Assembly: GCA_003576905.1 (NCBI GenBank)
Contig: QEVG01000009.1
Span: forward strand, 1-64,000
Direction of reading: 5' to 3'
Source: Planctomycetota bacterium
Lineage (GTDB): Bacteria; Planctomycetota; Phycisphaerae; UBA1845; UTPLA1
Length of the DNA: 64,000 nucleotides
In this document: positions 1-7,007 of the stretch, one piece after another
Position numbering within the stretch: the first letter of the stretch is position 1
Layout of the letters: every line of letters begins with the position of its first letter
The notes under the pieces: model-generated
Seen by the model: the letters and a program-made list of their open reading frames with translations, nothing else
Databases searched by the model: none
Told to the model about the DNA's origin: nothing
Program-made: the position numbers and the translations under genes

Positions 1-414
1 GAGTTCGACCCCGACACCTTCCGCGGCAAGGTCGTTTACTGGTCGCCTCAGGCGACCGACGACCCCTTCGAGAGCAAGTTCTTCAAGTATTTCGCCGCCA
101 ACTTCAACAGGCTCGTCCTCAAGCGGCTCATCTGCACCAGCTACGACGGCTCGCCCCTCGCCGGTCAAGGAACGCTCTTCGACGAATACAGCGGCGGTGA
201 AAATGGGGGCAACGGCCACCGCAAGAAGCCCAAGGCCATCGCTGTCATCGTCGACCACGTGCGGGACGAGAACAACGACGGCGCGGCCGACATCGAAGAC
301 GTCAAGTTCTTCCTCAAGAGAAATAAGGCCAACCGCATCGCCCTCAAGGGCAACGACCAATACCCCGGCGGCGACTTCCGCAGCCCATCGTTTTTCCGTA
401 GGATATGTGCGTGA
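1..414 (+). pseudogene. Truncated EcoRI-family adenine-specific DNA methyltransferase (N-terminal fragment)
   Basis: The reading frame is open from the window edge to a TGA at 412-414. It resembles the N-terminal part of the EcoRI-family N6-adenine methyltransferases, with a KVVYWSPQATDDPFESKFF block followed by FKYFAANFNRL, LICTSYDGSP and later LKGN...GGDFRS. In intact members GDFRS is followed by a helix and then the catalytic NPPF motif. Here homology stops right after GDFRS (about base 384), and the frame runs out through about nine unrelated residues. The catalytic motif is therefore missing and the protein should be inactive. The stop overlaps the start of the next methyltransferase by 10 bases. 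The upstream part lies outside the window. The family call rests on remembered family patterns and is fairly firm. The truncation is directly visible. Confidence 0.72.
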
Positions 415-1412
415 CGAACTTGCTGTCATCCAATCGCGCGGAGCTCGATGAGCGGACGTTGCTCGATGAGTTGATCGATCGGGGAAACCTTGACGATTTG
501 ATCCCGCAGCTTGCTCGTGAGGCCCAGACCATAGCCCGCATTGAGAGCGCCGCACAACGTCGGCATACCTCACACGAACTGCTTTTGCAGGACGCTCGAA
601 GCGCCTCAAATCTAGCCGAGAACTCGATACATCTCGTCGTTACGTCGCCCCCTTACTGGACGCTCAAGCGTTACAACGAAGGCGACGATCAGCTCGGCCA
701 CATCGCGGACTATGACGCGTTTATTGATTCGCTCGATGAAGTCTGGAAGCATTGTTATCGCGCCCTCGTGCCCGGCGGCAGGCTCGTAATAAACGTGGGT
801 GACGTTTGCCTTTCGAGAAGAAAGAACAATGGTCGGCACACCGTTGTGCCTCTTCACGCGACAATACAGGAACACTGCAAGCAGATCGGTTTCGACAACC
901 TCGCGCCGATCATCTGGCACAAGATTGCCAACGCCAACTATGAAGTTTCTGGCGGCGGCGGATTCCTCGGTAAACCCTACGAGCCTAACGCTGTCATCAA
1001 GAATGACATTGAGTTCATTCTCATGCAGCGCAAGCCGGGTGGGTACCGCAGCCCATCGAAGACCGAAAGATTACTCAGCGTAATCAGCGCGGAAAACTAC
1101 CAGCTTTGGTTTCGCCAAATCTGGTCTGACCTAAAGGGAACATCGACGGCGAAACACCCCGCTCCTTACTCTGTCGATTTCGCGGAACGGCTGGTACGCA
1201 TGTTCTCGTTCGTCGGCGACACCGTACTCGATCCATTCATGGGGACTGGCTCCACCAACCTTGCATGTGCTCGTTGGGGCCGGAACAGCATCGGGATCGA
1301 GGTCGATCCCAAATACTTCGAGATGGCGCGTGCGCGCATCGCAGCCCACGGGGCCGATCTCTTCCTCGGTTCCACAATCAACACGCGAATCAATGGCCAT
1401 GGACGACCTTGA
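405..1412 (+). CDS. Type II DNA methyltransferase, beta-class (TSPPYW motif)
   Basis: Product of 335 residues with the N4-cytosine/N6-adenine methyltransferase fold. The catalytic motif IV is TSPPYW at residues 80-85. The SAM-binding motif I, DPFMGTGST, is at residues 276-284 and is followed by GIEVDPKYFEMARARI. Motif IV preceding motif I makes it a beta-class enzyme. SPPYW is more typical of N4-methylcytosine enzymes, although it does not exclude N6-adenine. The ATG at 405 is preceded by a short AGG. The 3' end overlaps the endonuclease gene by 20 bases, the usual tight pairing of modification and restriction genes. It should protect the host against the downstream PaeR7I-like enzyme. The gene sits exactly where an older methyltransferase gene is broken, so it probably arrived by transfer. 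Confidence 0.88.
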   Translation: MCVTNLLSSNRAELDERTLLDELIDRGNLDDLIPQLAREAQTIARIESAAQRRHTSHELLLQDARSASNLAENSIHLVVTSPPYWTLKRYNEGDDQLGHIADYDAFIDSLDEVWKHCYRALVPGGRLVINVGDVCLSRRKNNGRHTVVPLHATIQEHCKQIGFDNLAPIIWHKIANANYEVSGGGGFLGKPYEPNAVIKNDIEFILMQRKPGGYRSPSKTERLLSVISAENYQLWFRQIWSDLKGTSTAKHPAPYSVDFAERLVRMFSFVGDTVLDPFMGTGSTNLACARWGRNSIGIEVDPKYFEMARARIAAHGADLFLGSTINTRINGHGRP

Positions 1413-2118
1413 ATCCGATCTTCGCAACGCGGTTCGGCACTTTTGGCGCACACGAACCGACCAGTCGTCGAAGCAGACTCTAGCCGAAGCACGTGACCGG
1501 GGAAGCCGAGCAGCCGTCACGGGCGGAAAGCAGATGGATGGCTTTGTCCGTTTGGTGCGACGCCTTCTGATCGAGGCGAAAGTCCCAGAGTCTTGCATTG
1601 CGATTGACAAGCGTGTCGAACTTCCCGGCTGGTTTCGTGCGGAGAAGAAGTGGGATTTGGTGATCGTGCATCAGCAGGAACTCATTGCGGCAGTCGAGTT
1701 CAAGTCCCAGATCGGTCCGTCGTTCGGAAACAACTTCAACAACCGCACGGAAGAAGCGCTTGGCAGCGCTACCGATATTTGGGCCGCGTACCGCGAGGGT
1801 GCGTTCAAACCGTCGAGCCGGCCATTTCTCGGGTATCTGATGCTTCTCGAAGATTGTGACCGTTCCCGTTCTGCCGTGAAGACGGTCGCACCGCACTTTC
1901 CCGTCTTCCCCGAGTTTGAGGGAGCATCCTACCGCGATCGATATGCCATCCTGATCGAGAAGATGCTTCGCGATCGCCTCTACGATGGTGCCTGTTTCCT
2001 ATTGTCACAGACCGAATCGTCTGAAACAGGTGAATACACCGAGCCACATGCCGAATTGACGTTTCGTAAGTTCATTACCCCACTCCTGGCTCGGGTCGCG
2101 ACGATTTGTGACAAGTGA
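1393..2118 (+). CDS. PaeR7I/XhoI-family type II restriction endonuclease
   Basis: Product of about 241 residues closely matching the PaeR7I family over its whole length: AVRHFWRTR near the N-terminus, GSRAAVTGGKQMDGF, then the PD-(D/E)xK nuclease core, and GPSFGNNFNNRTEEALGSA followed by GEYTEP near the C-terminus. Counted from the second ATG (1399), the core has Asp86 in KKWDLV and Glu100-x-Lys102 in AVEFKS. Known PaeR7I-family enzymes cut CTCGAG, and this one probably does the same. There are ATG codons at 1393 and 1399, both inside the methyltransferase gene and neither with a clear Shine-Dalgarno, so the start is uncertain by two codons. The gene looks intact. Its TGA at 2116-2118 is followed in the same frame by the remnant of a DUF262/HNH protein. 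Confidence 0.92.
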   Translation: MAMDDLESDLRNAVRHFWRTRTDQSSKQTLAEARDRGSRAAVTGGKQMDGFVRLVRRLLIEAKVPESCIAIDKRVELPGWFRAEKKWDLVIVHQQELIAAVEFKSQIGPSFGNNFNNRTEEALGSATDIWAAYREGAFKPSSRPFLGYLMLLEDCDRSRSAVKTVAPHFPVFPEFEGASYRDRYAILIEKMLRDRLYDGACFLLSQTESSETGEYTEPHAELTFRKFITPLLARVATICDK

Positions 2119-2460
2119 TCGGTCAGGAATTGGCAGGCCGATGAATACGTCACCAACGGCAAGGGCACCTTTGAATACCTGCTGGGCGGCTCGAAAGACA
2201 AGAGGCTGCTTGCCGTGCGGGTGTTCGACACGAAGACGAAGAAAGTTGCGTACGCGAAGCAGACGCAGGCCGTGAAGGGAAAAAACAAATCCAACTGCCC
2301 GCTGTGCGCCGTCGGCGACAATGCGAACAAGGCGCGAATCTACGACTTCGACGAGATGGACGCCGACCACGTTGCCGCCTGGAGCAAGGGCGGCGATAGC
2401 TCGGCCAAGAACTGCCAGATGCTCTGCATCACCCACAATCGGGCCAAAGGAAATCGATAA
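2119..2460 (+). pseudogene. C-terminal remnant of a DUF262 (GmrSD-like) protein with HNH domain
   Basis: An open frame of 113 codons follows the endonuclease stop directly and in the same frame. It carries DEYVTNGKGTFEYLL, then VRVFDTKTKKVAYAKQ, then an HNH-like zinc module: CPLC, MDADHVAAWSKGG, and NCQMLCITHNRAKG. This is the characteristic end of DUF262 proteins that carry a C-terminal HNH nuclease. The N-terminal DUF262 NTPase-like domain (several hundred residues) is absent, so this is a fragment. A GTG at 2215 could start an 81-residue product covering only the HNH region. Genes of this type often accompany EcoRI-family methyltransferases, and the remnant of one lies on the other side of the restriction cassette. 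I infer that both are the two ends of one older locus. Confidence 0.7.
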
Positions 2461-2858: not shown

Positions 2859-3488
2859 ATGGCCGATGCCCGATCGAGATGGAAGCGCGTCCTGGCGGTT
2901 TCGGTGTGCGCGTCCCTGGCCTGGGCGTGCGGGGTCGGATGTTCGGCGTCCCCGGTAGGGCTGGCGACGCGGCTGATGGGCGAGGCGGTCGATGACCTCG
3001 ACATCAAGGAAAAGAAGAAGAAGTACGTCGGCGGGCCGGCACGCCTGGTCGATGAAGAGCTGGGCACGCGCGTGGAGACGTTTCGCGACGTGAACTCCGC
3101 CCGTGAGTGGCGGGTGTACCCGGTGTCGATGGACCCGCTGGCACTCTCGCGGTACGTGGTGGAAGTGCGGGACGGGCGGGTGCTGGCGATCACGAAGACG
3201 AAGAAGTACGGCGACCCGGCCGTGGGGATGACGCAGCAGGCGATCGCGTTCGAGGAGGTTCGCGGCAAGACGCCGGCGCAGTGCGAGGCGAAGCTGGGCC
3301 GTGCGCCGCTGCTGAACCTGCGAAGCGTTTCGAGCGGGCAGCTTGTCCAGTTTTACGACGCGAGCCTGATAAAAATCCAGGGTGTGACCGACCCCGACTA
3401 CTACATCGTCCGGTTTGACGCTTCCGGCGTCTGCGACAAGCTGGAGATGGTCGCGGTGTCGGGGTCCACCAAGGAAAACCCGATGTGA
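2859..3488 (+). CDS. Putative lipoprotein of unknown function
   Basis: Product of 209 residues. The ATG at 2859 has a good Shine-Dalgarno (GAGGCAGGGAG) a few bases upstream. The N-terminus is a signal peptide: Arg/Lys-rich residues 2-10, a hydrophobic stretch, then cysteines in LAWACGVGCSAS. One of these could be the lipidated residue of a lipoprotein, which would be anchored in the outer or cytoplasmic membrane. The mature part starts with a charged segment containing a run of lysines (KEKKKKY). No catalytic motif is recognisable. It lies alone between the restriction locus and the convergent glycosyltransferase gene. I do not recognise the family. Confidence 0.72.
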   Translation: MADARSRWKRVLAVSVCASLAWACGVGCSASPVGLATRLMGEAVDDLDIKEKKKKYVGGPARLVDEELGTRVETFRDVNSAREWRVYPVSMDPLALSRYVVEVRDGRVLAITKTKKYGDPAVGMTQQAIAFEEVRGKTPAQCEAKLGRAPLLNLRSVSSGQLVQFYDASLIKIQGVTDPDYYIVRFDASGVCDKLEMVAVSGSTKENPM

Positions 3489-3573
3489 CACGGGAGCGGG
3501 CCGGGGCCGATGAGGCGGACCGGGCCGGACGGCCGGGGGCGGTGAGTGCCTGAGCGCCGGCAGCGGCTCAACG

Positions 3574-4347
3574 TCATGTCAGTCCGCGGGCGGCAAGGAG
3601 TTCGCGATAGGCGGGGGCCGGATCGGAGTAGGCGAACTTCTCGGGCAGAGGCCATTTCGCGAAGAGCTTTTCGTTGTCGCGGTCGATGACGGCCATGTCG
3701 GCGCTCTTGCGGTCGTCGATCAGTTCCTCGTGATAAACAAGGGCTGCCCGGCAGCCGACGACGAGCAGCCCGGCTTCGAGCTGTACCTTCAGGGCGAGGT
3801 CCGGATCCCACGCGCAGAAGTAGTATCGCTCATCGAGATAGCCGAGGCGGGCGAGCAGGTCTCGCCGCAGCAGGCCGAAATTGGCGTAGGGGCGTCCGCG
3901 CACGTTGTAGATGCTGTAGCTTTCCCCGTCGCGCTCGATGGTGTCGAGCTTGTTCCACCGGCGGTTCTCATTGTGATAGAAGGCGATCATGCCGACGTCG
4001 GACAGCTCGGGCCGCTCGATCATGCCCACGGCCGCCTCGATCGCACCGGGGAGCGGGTATGAGTCGTCGTTGAGCCACATCACGTAGCGCCCGACCGCGG
4101 CGCGGAAGCCCTTGTTGTAGGCCCTGGTCGCGCCCTCGCGGGCGGTCTCGCGGATGAAGCGGATATCCTCTTGGGCGGCGGCCCATTCCTCGGTGCCGTC
4201 TCCGCGGCTGCCGCCGACGACAATGATCTCGCGCGGGATGCGGACATTCTCCCGGATGCGGGCGATGCAGCGCTGGAGGCGCGCGCAGCGGTGATAGGTG
4301 GCGATGACGATGCTGACGGTCGGGGCGTCGGTGCGCGGTGTGTTCAT
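3574..4347 (-). CDS. Family 2 glycosyltransferase
   Basis: Product of 257 residues from the ATG at 4345-4347, with the GT-A fold pattern of GT2 enzymes. Residues 11-16 are SIVIAT. EIIVVGGSRGDGTEEW corresponds to the nucleotide-binding strand. The metal-binding motif is in MWLNDDSYPLPGA near residue 90. The segment YFCAWDPDLALKVQLEAG is the acceptor-side helix with the acidic pair seen in this family. It probably transfers a sugar from a nucleotide sugar onto a surface glycan. It is the only gene of this locus on the minus strand and is divergent from the next one, with 164 bases between the starts. No strong Shine-Dalgarno is present, so the start is inferred from domain completeness. Donor and acceptor cannot be predicted. 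Confidence 0.86.
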   Translation of the reverse strand: MNTPRTDAPTVSIVIATYHRCARLQRCIARIRENVRIPREIIVVGGSRGDGTEEWAAAQEDIRFIRETAREGATRAYNKGFRAAVGRYVMWLNDDSYPLPGAIEAAVGMIERPELSDVGMIAFYHNENRRWNKLDTIERDGESYSIYNVRGRPYANFGLLRRDLLARLGYLDERYYFCAWDPDLALKVQLEAGLLVVGCRAALVYHEELIDDRKSADMAVIDRDNEKLFAKWPLPEKFAYSDPAPAYRELLAARGLT

Positions 4348-4511
4348 AAGGGGCTTTCGCGGGCGGCGAAGTTCGCGGCCGCCCGGCGTTGTTCGAAGCG
4401 GCGGGGCGCAGGATCGGCCGCACAAAACGTATCGGCGGGGCGGAAGGGGGGACGATAGATACATGCGGTGACGGCGGCGGGGCGGTTCGGCGGAAATTGC
4501 GCGAGAGCGGC

Positions 4512-7007
4512 ATGTCAGGCGACGGACGAACGGCGGTTGCATATTCGGCAGCGGGGGCGAGCGACGGAACGGGAGCGCAGAGCCTTGCGGTCAACTCGGG
4601 CGCGGCGGCGGGCGTTTCGCCGGCGCGGTCGGTGGATGAACTCTTCGCGGCGGGCCATCACTACGGGGTATTGCAGGCGGTGCTGCCGATGATCTCGGCG
4701 CACGGCGGGGCGATCGGCGAGCCGGAGCGGATTCACGCGGCCCTGCTGGGGGTGAAGTCGTACGTGGCGCTGGGTCTGATCGGGCCGGCGCTTGAATTGC
4801 TGTCGGGTACATTCAGCCCACTCGCGGCCGTGCCGGAGTTTGAGCCGCTTCGCCGGCAGCTTGCGGCGATGCCGACCGGGCAGATTCCGTGGGTGAGGTT
4901 AAGCGAGCGTTTCGAGCGCAATGCGGCGCGGCTGTACGCGGCGCGGCCCGAGCTTCGGGAGTACGACGAAGCGTTTCGCGCCGCGGCGCGCGGACGGGAA
5001 GTGTTCTGGGCGGCGGACGGGAACGTGCACATATCGGAGCGGGGGGACGGCGGGGCGCGGCGCTGGCTGTCGGCGCTGTGCGATCATGCGGGGGTGCTGG
5101 CGGCGGTGCGGCTGCCGCACGATCCGAAGACGCTGTTCTGCCCCCCGTACGCGATCACCGGAGACTACCTCGGCGGGCTGTTTCGCAGGGTATTTGACGC
5201 GACGGCGGGGCTGTTCATGACGTTCGCGCCGCGCGTTTATGTCGTCGAGGCGGAGCCGGAGGCGATCGGGCTCTGCCTGTACGTGGAAGAGGACGTCGCG
5301 CGGTGGTGTCACGAGCGCGTCAGCGTGTTTACCGGGGGGGAGGCGGCGGCGCGTCTCGAGGCGCACCTGCTCGCGCATCCGGATCGGTCGCCGCCGGAAT
5401 ACTGCCTGCGGCTGCCGTACGCGTCAACGGACCGGTCGGGCGAAGTGATCGGGTCGATTCGCCGGTGTACATCGGCGGGGCTGGCGCGGGCCGGCGCGGC
5501 GATGGAGCGGATGAAAGAGAAGTACAGCGGCCTGGACGCGCGGGCGTGGGGGGCGCGGCTGGGTGACGGGCGGCCGCTGCGGATCCTTGGGATAACGAGC
5601 CGGTTTACGACGGTGCTTCAATACTCGATGCGCGACGTGAAGGCGGCGTTCGAGCGGCTGGGGCACGCGTTTGAGATATACATGGAGCCCACGGAGTACG
5701 ATCTGCCGACCGCGCCGGGCATGGCGGAGTGCATCGAGCGCGCCCGGCCGGACATGCTGTTCGTCATCGATCATCATCGGCGCGAATACGCGCAGACGAT
5801 GCCGGCGGATGTTCCGTTCGTGTGCTGGGTGCAGGATGCGCTGCCGAACCTGACATCGCGCGAGGCGGGGCGGTCGCTGGGGCCGCTGGACTTTTTCATC
5901 TCGGCGGATCCGGATGAACTGGTGCGGTGTTACGGGTATCCGCGGGAGCGCGGGCTGGGCTGGTCGCTGGCGACGAACGCGCGGCTGTTCTCGGCGGAGC
6001 CGGTTTCAGAGGAGCGGCTCGCGGCGTATCGGTGTGATTTTTCGTTTGTCAGCAACCAGTCCACGGTGCCGGAGGCGTTTCATCGCGAATATGTCGCGGC
6101 TTCGGGTGGCGGGCCGTCGGGAAGGGTGGTCTATGAATACCTTTACGAGCGCCTGCGGGAGCTATCTGAGAAGCGCGGCGGGGGCGATGGATCGATCGTC
6201 GCGGGGGAACTGATCGCGGATCTTGAGCGCGACACCGGGCTGGCGCCGTCGAGCGCAGGGCGGCGAGATCATCTCTGCCGGACCTACATTCACCCGCTGT
6301 CCGAGCTTTTCTTCCGGCAGCGGACGCTGGAGTGGGTGGCCGACTTCTGCGACCGGACGGGCCGGGTGCTGCACCTTTACGGGCACGGGTGGGAGAAGCA
6401 CCCGCGCTTTGCGCGGTATTCGCGCGGGGTGATTGAGAACGGCGAGCCGCTGCGCGGGTTGTACCAGGCGAGCCGGATCAATCTTCAGATCATCGGCAGC
6501 GGGGCGGTGCATCAGCGGCTGCTGGACGGCCTTGCGGCGGGCGGGTTTTTCCTGGTGCGGGCGGCGGCCGTCGATCGCGTGCACGAGGCGTGTGCGCGCG
6601 TCCTGGGTCTGGTGGATGCGGGGATGCTGGAGCCGGGGCGGAGCTATGAGATCGCTGCACATCCGGACGTGGCGGCGGCGATATGCGATGTCACGGTGCT
6701 CGTCGGGGTTCGCCCGCGCGGCACGACGATCGCGCTGAGCGAGGAGGATGTCGCAACGGTGCGCAGCGCATTTGAACAGCGCGGGCGGCGCTTTGCCGGG
6801 GCGGTGTTCGGTGAGGACTACGATCGGGTGTGGTTTGCCGACCGCGCGCGGTTCGAAGCGCTGGCCGAGCGATACCTGCCGGACGCCGACGCGCGGCGCG
6901 CGGCGGCCGCGCCCATGCGGGAGATGGTCCTTTCGCGATTTACCTACGACGCGCTTGCGCGGGACCTGCTGGTGTTGATGCGCGCTCGGCTTGCTGCGCA
7001 GTGCTGA
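4512..7007 (+). CDS. Large glycosyltransferase with C-terminal CgeB/GT1-like domain
   Basis: Product of about 831 residues. The N-terminal half (roughly 1-350) is unrecognised. The C-terminal half resembles CgeB/DUF3880-type glycosyltransferases: LRILGITSRFTTVLQYS starts a Rossmann-like domain, followed by DMLFVIDHHRREY, PFVCWVQDALP and DFFISADPDEL. A final Glyco_trans_1_2-like segment contains LYGHGWEKHPRF, GVIENGEPLRGLYQASRINLQ and HQRLLDGLAAGGFFLVR. It probably transfers sugars during surface-glycan assembly. The ATG at 4512 has no clear Shine-Dalgarno, and an upstream in-frame start is possible because the frame is open from 4389. It begins a run of plus-strand glycan genes ending at 13558. 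Confidence 0.75.
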   Translation: MSGDGRTAVAYSAAGASDGTGAQSLAVNSGAAAGVSPARSVDELFAAGHHYGVLQAVLPMISAHGGAIGEPERIHAALLGVKSYVALGLIGPALELLSGTFSPLAAVPEFEPLRRQLAAMPTGQIPWVRLSERFERNAARLYAARPELREYDEAFRAAARGREVFWAADGNVHISERGDGGARRWLSALCDHAGVLAAVRLPHDPKTLFCPPYAITGDYLGGLFRRVFDATAGLFMTFAPRVYVVEAEPEAIGLCLYVEEDVARWCHERVSVFTGGEAAARLEAHLLAHPDRSPPEYCLRLPYASTDRSGEVIGSIRRCTSAGLARAGAAMERMKEKYSGLDARAWGARLGDGRPLRILGITSRFTTVLQYSMRDVKAAFERLGHAFEIYMEPTEYDLPTAPGMAECIERARPDMLFVIDHHRREYAQTMPADVPFVCWVQDALPNLTSREAGRSLGPLDFFISADPDELVRCYGYPRERGLGWSLATNARLFSAEPVSEERLAAYRCDFSFVSNQSTVPEAFHREYVAASGGGPSGRVVYEYLYERLRELSEKRGGGDGSIVAGELIADLERDTGLAPSSAGRRDHLCRTYIHPLSELFFRQRTLEWVADFCDRTGRVLHLYGHGWEKHPRFARYSRGVIENGEPLRGLYQASRINLQIIGSGAVHQRLLDGLAAGGFFLVRAAAVDRVHEACARVLGLVDAGMLEPGRSYEIAAHPDVAAAICDVTVLVGVRPRGTTIALSEEDVATVRSAFEQRGRRFAGAVFGEDYDRVWFADRARFEALAERYLPDADARRAAAAPMREMVLSRFTYDALARDLLVLMRARLAAQC

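Follow-up and report, generated by a model that had tools for sequence, protein, structure and literature searches.

How does a complete restriction-modification (R-M) system come to lie between the broken halves of another? The question is raised by the first 2,460 nucleotides of the window, a 64,000-nucleotide stretch of a Planctomycetota bacterium of the Phycisphaerae (GenBank assembly GCA_003576905.1, contig QEVG01000009.1, positions 1 to 64,000 of the forward strand), in which a PaeR7I-type methyltransferase and endonuclease pair stands between the 5' part of an EcoRI-type DNA methyltransferase gene (M) and the 3' part of a gene for a DUF262-HNH nuclease (R; Table 1). A sequence-only reading had proposed that one defence locus was overwritten here by another, with loss of the centre of the first. 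Our analysis upholds the replacement, but not as a single event: the core has been replaced repeatedly, by different cargos, between the same two gene ends, at seven places, and the PaeR7I pair is found in the same position in a second genome, G527. We consider it probable that the locus is an R-M exchange platform, at which the broken halves of R-M genes would serve as homology arms for the exchange of cassettes.

The left remnant matches the Pfam family EcoRI_methylase (PF13651) over profile positions 28-130 of 345 (E 5.5e-21). By tblastn, window positions 1-384 align to codons 37-157 of an intact M at another locus, L013, with DNA homology stopping at 386 and the matching sequence ending upstream of the catalytic TNPPFS region. 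M codons 1-36 lie beyond the start of the contig at window position 1 (the genome is in 65 contigs and 97% complete), so their absence does not necessarily imply loss. These matches mark the sequence as an M remnant by descent, predicted not to be a functional EcoRI-type methyltransferase. In addition, an insertion of net 9 nt, which carries a perfect 7-bp inverted repeat, changes the conserved CNCDDP to WSPQATDDP; among 18 aligned units it is common only to the window and L021, and CNCDDP is kept in all nine intact units. Since this insertion destroys the motif, it is probably inactivating and the left remnant of the window probably dead. The right remnant is the last 108 codons of R: window positions 2140-2457 match the PADLOC type II restriction endonuclease model PDLC03418 at 285-371 of 372 (E 6e-15) and the HNH Pfam domain (E 8e-6), and tblastn covers R codons 277-388 of L013. 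DNA homology begins at codon 281. Only the HNH tail is left of the DUF262-then-HNH architecture, both parts of which are present in the R of L013.

The L013 pair (open reading frames 2959-4158 for M and 4155-5321 for R) serves as the intact reference for the resident unit. Its M matches PF13651 with an E value of 4.7e-123 and its R carries GmrSD_N (DUF262; E 1.5e-21) plus HNH. Both window remnants map to this pair with a single gap, M158-399 and R1-280, leaving a missing core of ~242 M codons and 280 R codons; the two genes of L013 overlap by 4 nt, so both remnants fit one contiguous pair. The sequence-only reading, which had taken the left fragment for an EcoRI-family methyltransferase cut before its catalytic motif, and the right one for the HNH tail alone of a DUF262 protein, and which had named alignment of both to one contiguous pair with a common gap as support, is thereby borne out, as is its further claim that an intact methyltransferase and PaeR7I-family endonuclease lie between them.

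Table 1 Features of the window, and cargos with left/right breakpoints of DNA homology at the seven places where an insert lies between an M 5' end and an R 3' end
Locus	Feature	Position	Strand	Basis
Window	5' remnant of EcoRI-type DNA methyltransferase gene (M codons 37-157), terminating ..GGDFRSP	1..386	+	PF13651; L013 alignment; end of DNA homology
Window	Inverted repeat GGTCGCC-TCA-GGCGACC inside net 9-nt in-frame insertion	41..57	+	18-unit alignment
Window	Left junction (M homology to cargo leader)	386..387		Alignment; within ~1 codon of G527 (L100) junction, identical point to L030
Window	GTGA, cargo methylase GTG start overlapping left-remnant TGA stop	411..414	+	Start by homology to L100
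Window	Cargo DNA methyltransferase of PaeR7I pair (N6_N4_Mtase)	411..1412	+	PF01555, E 7.9e-38; mechanical open reading frame from 405
Window	Cargo restriction endonuclease, XhoI/PaeR7I family	1399..2118	+	PF04555; PDLC03540
Window	Right junction (cargo trailer to R homology, codon 281)	2135..2136		Alignment; codon identical in G527 (L100)
Window	3' remnant (HNH tail, R codons 281-388 and stop) of GmrSD_N/DUF262-HNH nuclease	2136..2460	+	PDLC03418; HNH; L013 alignment
Window	Cargo: PaeR7I pair	386/2136
L040 (G003)	Cargo: D12 methylase, SacI-like nuclease	3963/6050		E 1e-22; 2e-4
L012	Cargo: D12 methylase, PD-Lambda-5_A-like protein, one unknown	about 1866/4904		E 3e-12; 7e-22
L021	Cargo: two unknowns, C5 methylase	2647/5013		C5 methylase, E 1e-57
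L030	Cargo: HEAT-repeat protein, N6/N4 methylase	2418/about 4987-5016		N6/N4 methylase, E 2e-41
L033	Cargo: type I-like methylase with HSDR_N_2 domain, weakly matching specificity subunit	1610/4954		Specificity subunit, E 5e-4
L069 (G531)	Cargo: type II nuclease, N6/N4 methylase	6214/8284	opposite	E 3e-159; 7e-57

The cargo of the window has the form of a type II R-M system, with adjacent, overlapping methyltransferase and endonuclease genes that both match Pfam profiles at near full length. The nuclease covers the whole XhoI domain (PF04555, profile 2-190 of 191, E 2.9e-78) and matches PADLOC PDLC03540 (E 6e-85); its predicted site would be CTCGAG, which we take to be the target of the PaeR7I/XhoI family. 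PDB searches with the cargo nuclease and with the intact M gave no match at E 0.01. In composition, a comparison that the sequence-only reading had suggested, positions 405-2118 differ from the rest of the window: their 4-mer distance lies above that of all 228 sliding windows and their GC content is 0.56, against 0.634. The remnants are somewhat atypical themselves, with a 4-mer distance equalled or exceeded by 9 of the 228. A composite transposon or a PluTI-like element is expected to show terminal inverted repeats and a target duplication. Within 300-2560 the longest inverted repeat is 17 nt at 82%, the left outer end lying beyond the contig, and the direct repeats (among them 10-nt TTTCCGTAGG at 393 and 2482; 13-nt CCGCAGCCCATCG at 378 and 1046) are possibly due to chance. 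Comparison of the junction sequences by eye revealed no common motif, which argues against site-specific insertion.

We surveyed relatives from both ends of the unit. The right remnant was matched in 8 of 101 relatives (four weak HNH matches were left unused) and in 5 of 392 genomes of the phylum. A scan of genome contigs with right-remnant peptides gave 28 loci, classified by tblastn with the L013 proteins and by a check of reading frames. M is followed by R with both frames open at 13 loci, one of which (L029) has an extra gene between them. An M 5' end, a foreign insert and an R 3' end make up four loci (L012, L021, L030 and L033). The rest comprise L031 (frameshifted M, a further gene, full R), L017 (shortened M, full R), L039, four loci with a full or nearly full R and an M cut at the contig start (L016, L018, L032, L034) and four with part of R alone (L019, L023, L037, L038). 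At L029 the added gene encodes a coiled-coil protein, DUF2130-like by eye. L039 has nearly the whole M and just the last 20 codons of R (5001-5060), a deletion without cargo; over stretches of 59-72 bases its DNA matches other units at 78-92% identity.

Searches with the left remnant found 10 of 150, 6 of 392 and 15 of 397 genomes, in overlapping sets that include the window's own, for a total of 17 genomes and 19 places in the phylum. Seven of these places are chimeric with both ends (the window, G003, G017, two in G058, G531 and G579) and six have both frames open (G505, G211, G468, G487, G573, G660), so that intact M/R pairs do occur in relatives. M and R lie on separate contigs in G242, an M piece is followed by other genes in G014 and G056, and three places are cut or broken (G389, a second place in G531, and G596). 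Across the two surveys we took G017 to be the same locus as L033, G058 as L021 and L030, G579 as L012, and G505 as L026; L012, L021, L030 and L033 are recorded as Phycisphaerae, and L026 as Planctomycetia.

Intact pairs are annotated on plasmids of Pseudarthrobacter, Gordonia and Moraxella, the Moraxella R as a hypothetical protein. At L027 an attC-like sequence is visible by eye ~140-260 nt past the HNH stop, and the intact pair there may be an integron cassette. Three viral contigs (L050-L052) carry an EcoRI-type M (codons 9-353) with no R match within the stretch fetched. Loci of different phyla are alike over tens of bases just past the HNH stop, ~30-110 nt after it in many of them and to a varying extent (about TAATATGGGCGTG..CGGCGCG); after window position 2460 this similarity is weak. 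Considered as the end of a cis-acting element, it showed no definable repeats or target duplication.

The seven places with an insert between an M 5' end and an R 3' end hold seven different cargos. Apart from the window, their breakpoints range from M107 to M179 on the left and from R17 to R330 on the right (tblastn). Measured from the DNA-homology breakpoints of Table 1, the outermost cargo codons, with start codons picked by eye, lie at -16 to 64 bp at all 14 ends (negative values denoting overlap), and the inserts contain little besides cargo genes. The L012, L021 and L030 cargos, in which the nuclease was not identified, are judged R-M-like because of their methylase, and the L033 cargo has no complete restriction subunit. 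The L069 nuclease had no match in 101 relatives, a blank that says little because its own genome, G531, lay outside the searched set. The GTGA overlap of stop and start in the window, found also in L100 and L021, may couple translation of the left remnant to that of the cargo methylase; such coupling is not general, because the L069 cargo is inverted.

Differing content at one place can be seen directly in G003 and G014, two genomes of one genus whose site flanks are alike, mostly at 88-91% identity. The site in G003 holds the chimera with D12 and SacI-like genes. Its orthologue in G014 (L072, 6155-8147) keeps of M only a short piece (84% over 70 bp; tblastn places it at M 84-140), beside a 445-residue open reading frame, and flank homology resumes 8 bp past the stop point of the G003 HNH gene. 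Sequence derived from the M/R unit is present in both, with differing content.

The converse arrangement, one cargo between different ends, was found for the PaeR7I pair. Counting the window's own genome, 20 of 150 relatives gave a match to its nuclease, and the nearest other copy, 87% identical, lies in G527 (L100). There, a remnant of M 121-158 (E 3e-9), ending just past GGDFRS, stands directly upstream of the methylase, and a remnant of R 281-301 (E 1e-4) directly downstream of the nuclease. Both junctions agree with those of the window within ~1 codon, and the ~25-nt leader before the cargo start is similar. An assembly artefact had been considered, as the contig starts within the left remnant, and was set aside: a false join is unlikely because G527 has both junctions independently. 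None of the 15 PaeR7I loci retrieved (L100-L114) has a full-length M and R at its flanks within 900 bp, and the 14 besides L100 have no remnants within that distance, bar one hit at E 0.09 (E values up to 1 allowed). A lone C-terminal PaeR7I nuclease remnant occurs in L103 (G079, 6690-6827), with no methylase match in the 14 kb fetched.

Could the two layouts have arisen separately, by independent insertions of PaeR7I pairs into different EcoRI-type units at the same codons? Some site preference would be needed, and one near GGDFRS is conceivable, given that the left junction of L030, which holds a different cargo, coincides with that of the window. Yet both junctions and the leader agree between the window and L100, and the breakpoints of the other chimeras range over M107-M179 and R17-R330, so we regard this explanation as barely credible.

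The ends and the cargo have different histories, because their trees conflict and synonymous distances agree with the trees. In the cargo tree (13 PaeR7I pairs), the window and L100 are sisters (100/99). In the ends tree (19 units, leaving out L083, whose start was not located), the window falls with L040, L030, L021 and the intact L074 (100/99), and L100 with L069 (100/99); a grouping of the window and L100 ends is rejected, with approximately unbiased test p-values of 0.00026 for the concatenated ends and 0.0026 for the left end alone. The left remnant of L100 shares 92 of 103 bases with L069 against 79 of 105 with the window, and the right one 54 of 64 against 42 of 61. Synonymous distance (dS) between the window and L100 cargos is 1.70 for the methylase and 3.46 for the nuclease, both saturated. 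The left end of the window is at 0.26-0.29 from L040, L030 and L021, at 0.20 from the intact L074 and at 0.78 from L069, and its right end at 0.42-0.47 from L040, L030 and L021; the out-of-frame right piece of L069 was excluded from this set, which also served for dN/dS (nonsynonymous over synonymous) ratios. Allelic exchange would leave two patterns, and both are present: one flank clade (the window, L040, L030, L021 and the intact L074) with various cargos, and, for PaeR7I only, one cargo with different flanks.

These distances also bear on whether the chimera could be old and vertically inherited, the PaeR7I insertion predating the split of the end clades, with L074 and the other cargos arising by later core replacement. 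Cargo divergence fits such an old ancestor, exceeding the left-end distance between the clades. However, the scheme needs an intact core restored in L074 and several cores replacing PaeR7I, which is repeated core exchange itself, and the dN/dS of the right remnant (0.11-0.17 for the window against L040, L030 and L021) is unlike that of long-dead sequence; the right remnants look conserved, with no sign of long decay. We give this history little credence.

Less far-fetched, and still unlikely in our judgement, is a one-off illegitimate replacement by the PaeR7I pair, after which the ends would be decaying junk and the other loci unrelated events at a permissive place. Breakpoints that differ between most cargos, junctions at which no repeat or motif stands out, and remnants in decay (an in-frame stop in the left remnant of L012, a frameshift in the L033 tail) all fit this picture, and Campylobacter offers a precedent in which an R-M system replaced another's R gene with M disrupted (PMC4615327). 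Against it stands G527, where the cargo and the two junctions of the window recur between ends that belong to another clade, and the cargos have diverged far more than the ends.

We therefore return to the exchange platform as the probable explanation. On this view, a resident operon of EcoRI-type M and GmrSD_N-HNH R has lost its core, the 3' half of M and the 5' part of R, to a foreign complete pair. The first capture of each cassette would be an illegitimate joining, because breakpoints differ between most cargos and no common motif was seen. With a cassette in place, the M 5' half on one side and the R 3' half on the other may act as homology arms, so that DNA arriving by transformation or transduction could swap the resident core by homologous recombination. 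The left remnant would supply a promoter and translational coupling to the cargo. The old M and R have gone together, as selection would favour: loss of M alone would expose the chromosome to R, and joint replacement would spare the cell from a resident nuclease against which it no longer had protection. Type II R-M systems are described as causing post-segregational killing (PMC3031569, PMC3874152). Recombination among the ends is also suggested by two indels in the left remnant (9-nt and 12-nt), which occur in all four combinations: the 12-nt insertion is common to the window and L040, and L030 and L074 have neither. Repeated indels would produce the same pattern.

Several observations weigh against this explanation. 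Homology arms of ~60-500 bp with 75-91% identity make poor substrates for RecA between clades. For no cargo but PaeR7I were ends of two clades found, and the remnants that place it there in G527 are short: 38 and 21 codons, covering 29% and 19% of the columns in the tree. Support for the window clade is lower in the right-end tree (92/88), the window-L074 right-end dS is 0.97, and, because the cargo comparison is saturated, the exchange would be old or have passed through unseen intermediates. Left-remnant dN/dS against L074 is raised for the window and L021 (0.40 each; L030 0.28, L040 0.21), and the stop in L012 and the frameshift in L033 also count here. Relatives of the other cargos (L127-L134) showed no M or R remnants at E <=0.01 except the G014 fragment. 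The inverted L069 cargo speaks against general coupling to the left remnant, and some inserts are not R-M: the 445-residue frame of G014 has no Pfam match; in G056 (L071, 5914-6551) the M 5' end is followed by a SLFN_AlbA_2 (Schlafen/AlbA_2) gene (1e-13) and the contig end, possibly another chimera with a non-R-M cargo; and on the Bifidobacterium choerinum plasmid pBC (L136) a predicted chloramphenicol efflux gene lies between an M match and a shortened HNH gene. The pBC arrangement spans the record start, and other DNA can evidently sit between the halves. Loci were sought by R-tail peptides or the M 5' end, so those without the queried end were missed. All the chimeras come from genomes that are unnamed or derived from metagenomes. 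Finally, chromosomal R-M systems are described as resisting replacement by allelic DNA (PMC3874152), which argues against easy swapping.

The EcoRI-type pair may itself have been cargo. In L013, the upstream frame (2668-2904) matches positions 1-65 of 542 of a type III methylase model (8e-22) and the downstream frame (5321-5611) positions 802-876 of 898 of a type III nuclease model (2e-27), so that this pair appears to have taken the place of a type III system's core. This geometry, an M N-terminus and an R C-terminus around a complete pair, was seen in 1 of 19 units, with flanking frames read by eye.

Replacement of one R-M system by another is already known; what we did not find described, in the search given below, is recurrent core replacement with reassortment of platforms and cargos. 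In Campylobacter cuniculorum a PabI-family R-M system replaces a type II R gene and the neighbouring M is disrupted, and the insertion in C. coli holds only R and M genes (Kojima & Kobayashi 2015, PMC4615327). As in the window, an R-M pair replaces part of another and the adjoining M is broken; unlike here, the accessible part of that report describes single events, with no reuse of two gene halves and no evidence of reassortment between halves and cargo. The pneumococcal DpnI/DpnII(/DpnIII) cassettes likewise alternate at one place, but they share one target, GATC (PMC12707154, PMC3573125), whereas here the cargos belong to unrelated families, and another R-M system provides the constant ends as its two halves. 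R-M systems also have mobile forms: insertion with long target duplication, movement linked to insertion sequences (IS) and, in E. coli, integration of a PaeR7I plasmid with IS elements (PMC3031569, PMC3874152). There too R-M pairs move as small units; the window locus differs in having no IS or recognised target duplication and in that old R-M halves are the proposed arms. A literature search of titles and abstract openings, with few subscription papers, returned no recurrent core replacement between the halves of one R-M pair and no reassortment of halves and cargos. At type I hsd loci, specificity or whole-system alleles are exchanged at one locus; those swaps involve homologous systems, unlike the unrelated families here.

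How R-M systems can turn over fast and yet be rare on mobile elements is a question posed by Oliveira et al. 2014 (PMC4176335). If our explanation is true, a self-made platform of homology arms would be one answer: R-M systems could be swapped with no need of a mobile element, and the old M and R would be removed in the same step. It would predict shared junctions, reassorted ends and gene-tight inserts, all of which can be counted in genomes. We see an even chance that the phenomenon reaches further, with unrelated R-M and some other cassettes reassorting between M 5' and R 3' halves by homologous recombination, converting intact resident units and spreading as core replacements, free of mobile elements; with the EcoRI-type pair as cargo too, in L013, R-M systems may turn over by this M-to-R core replacement in general. 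On the platform model, truncated R-M genes found next to an intact system would also be readable as a record of past specificities and not as annotation noise.

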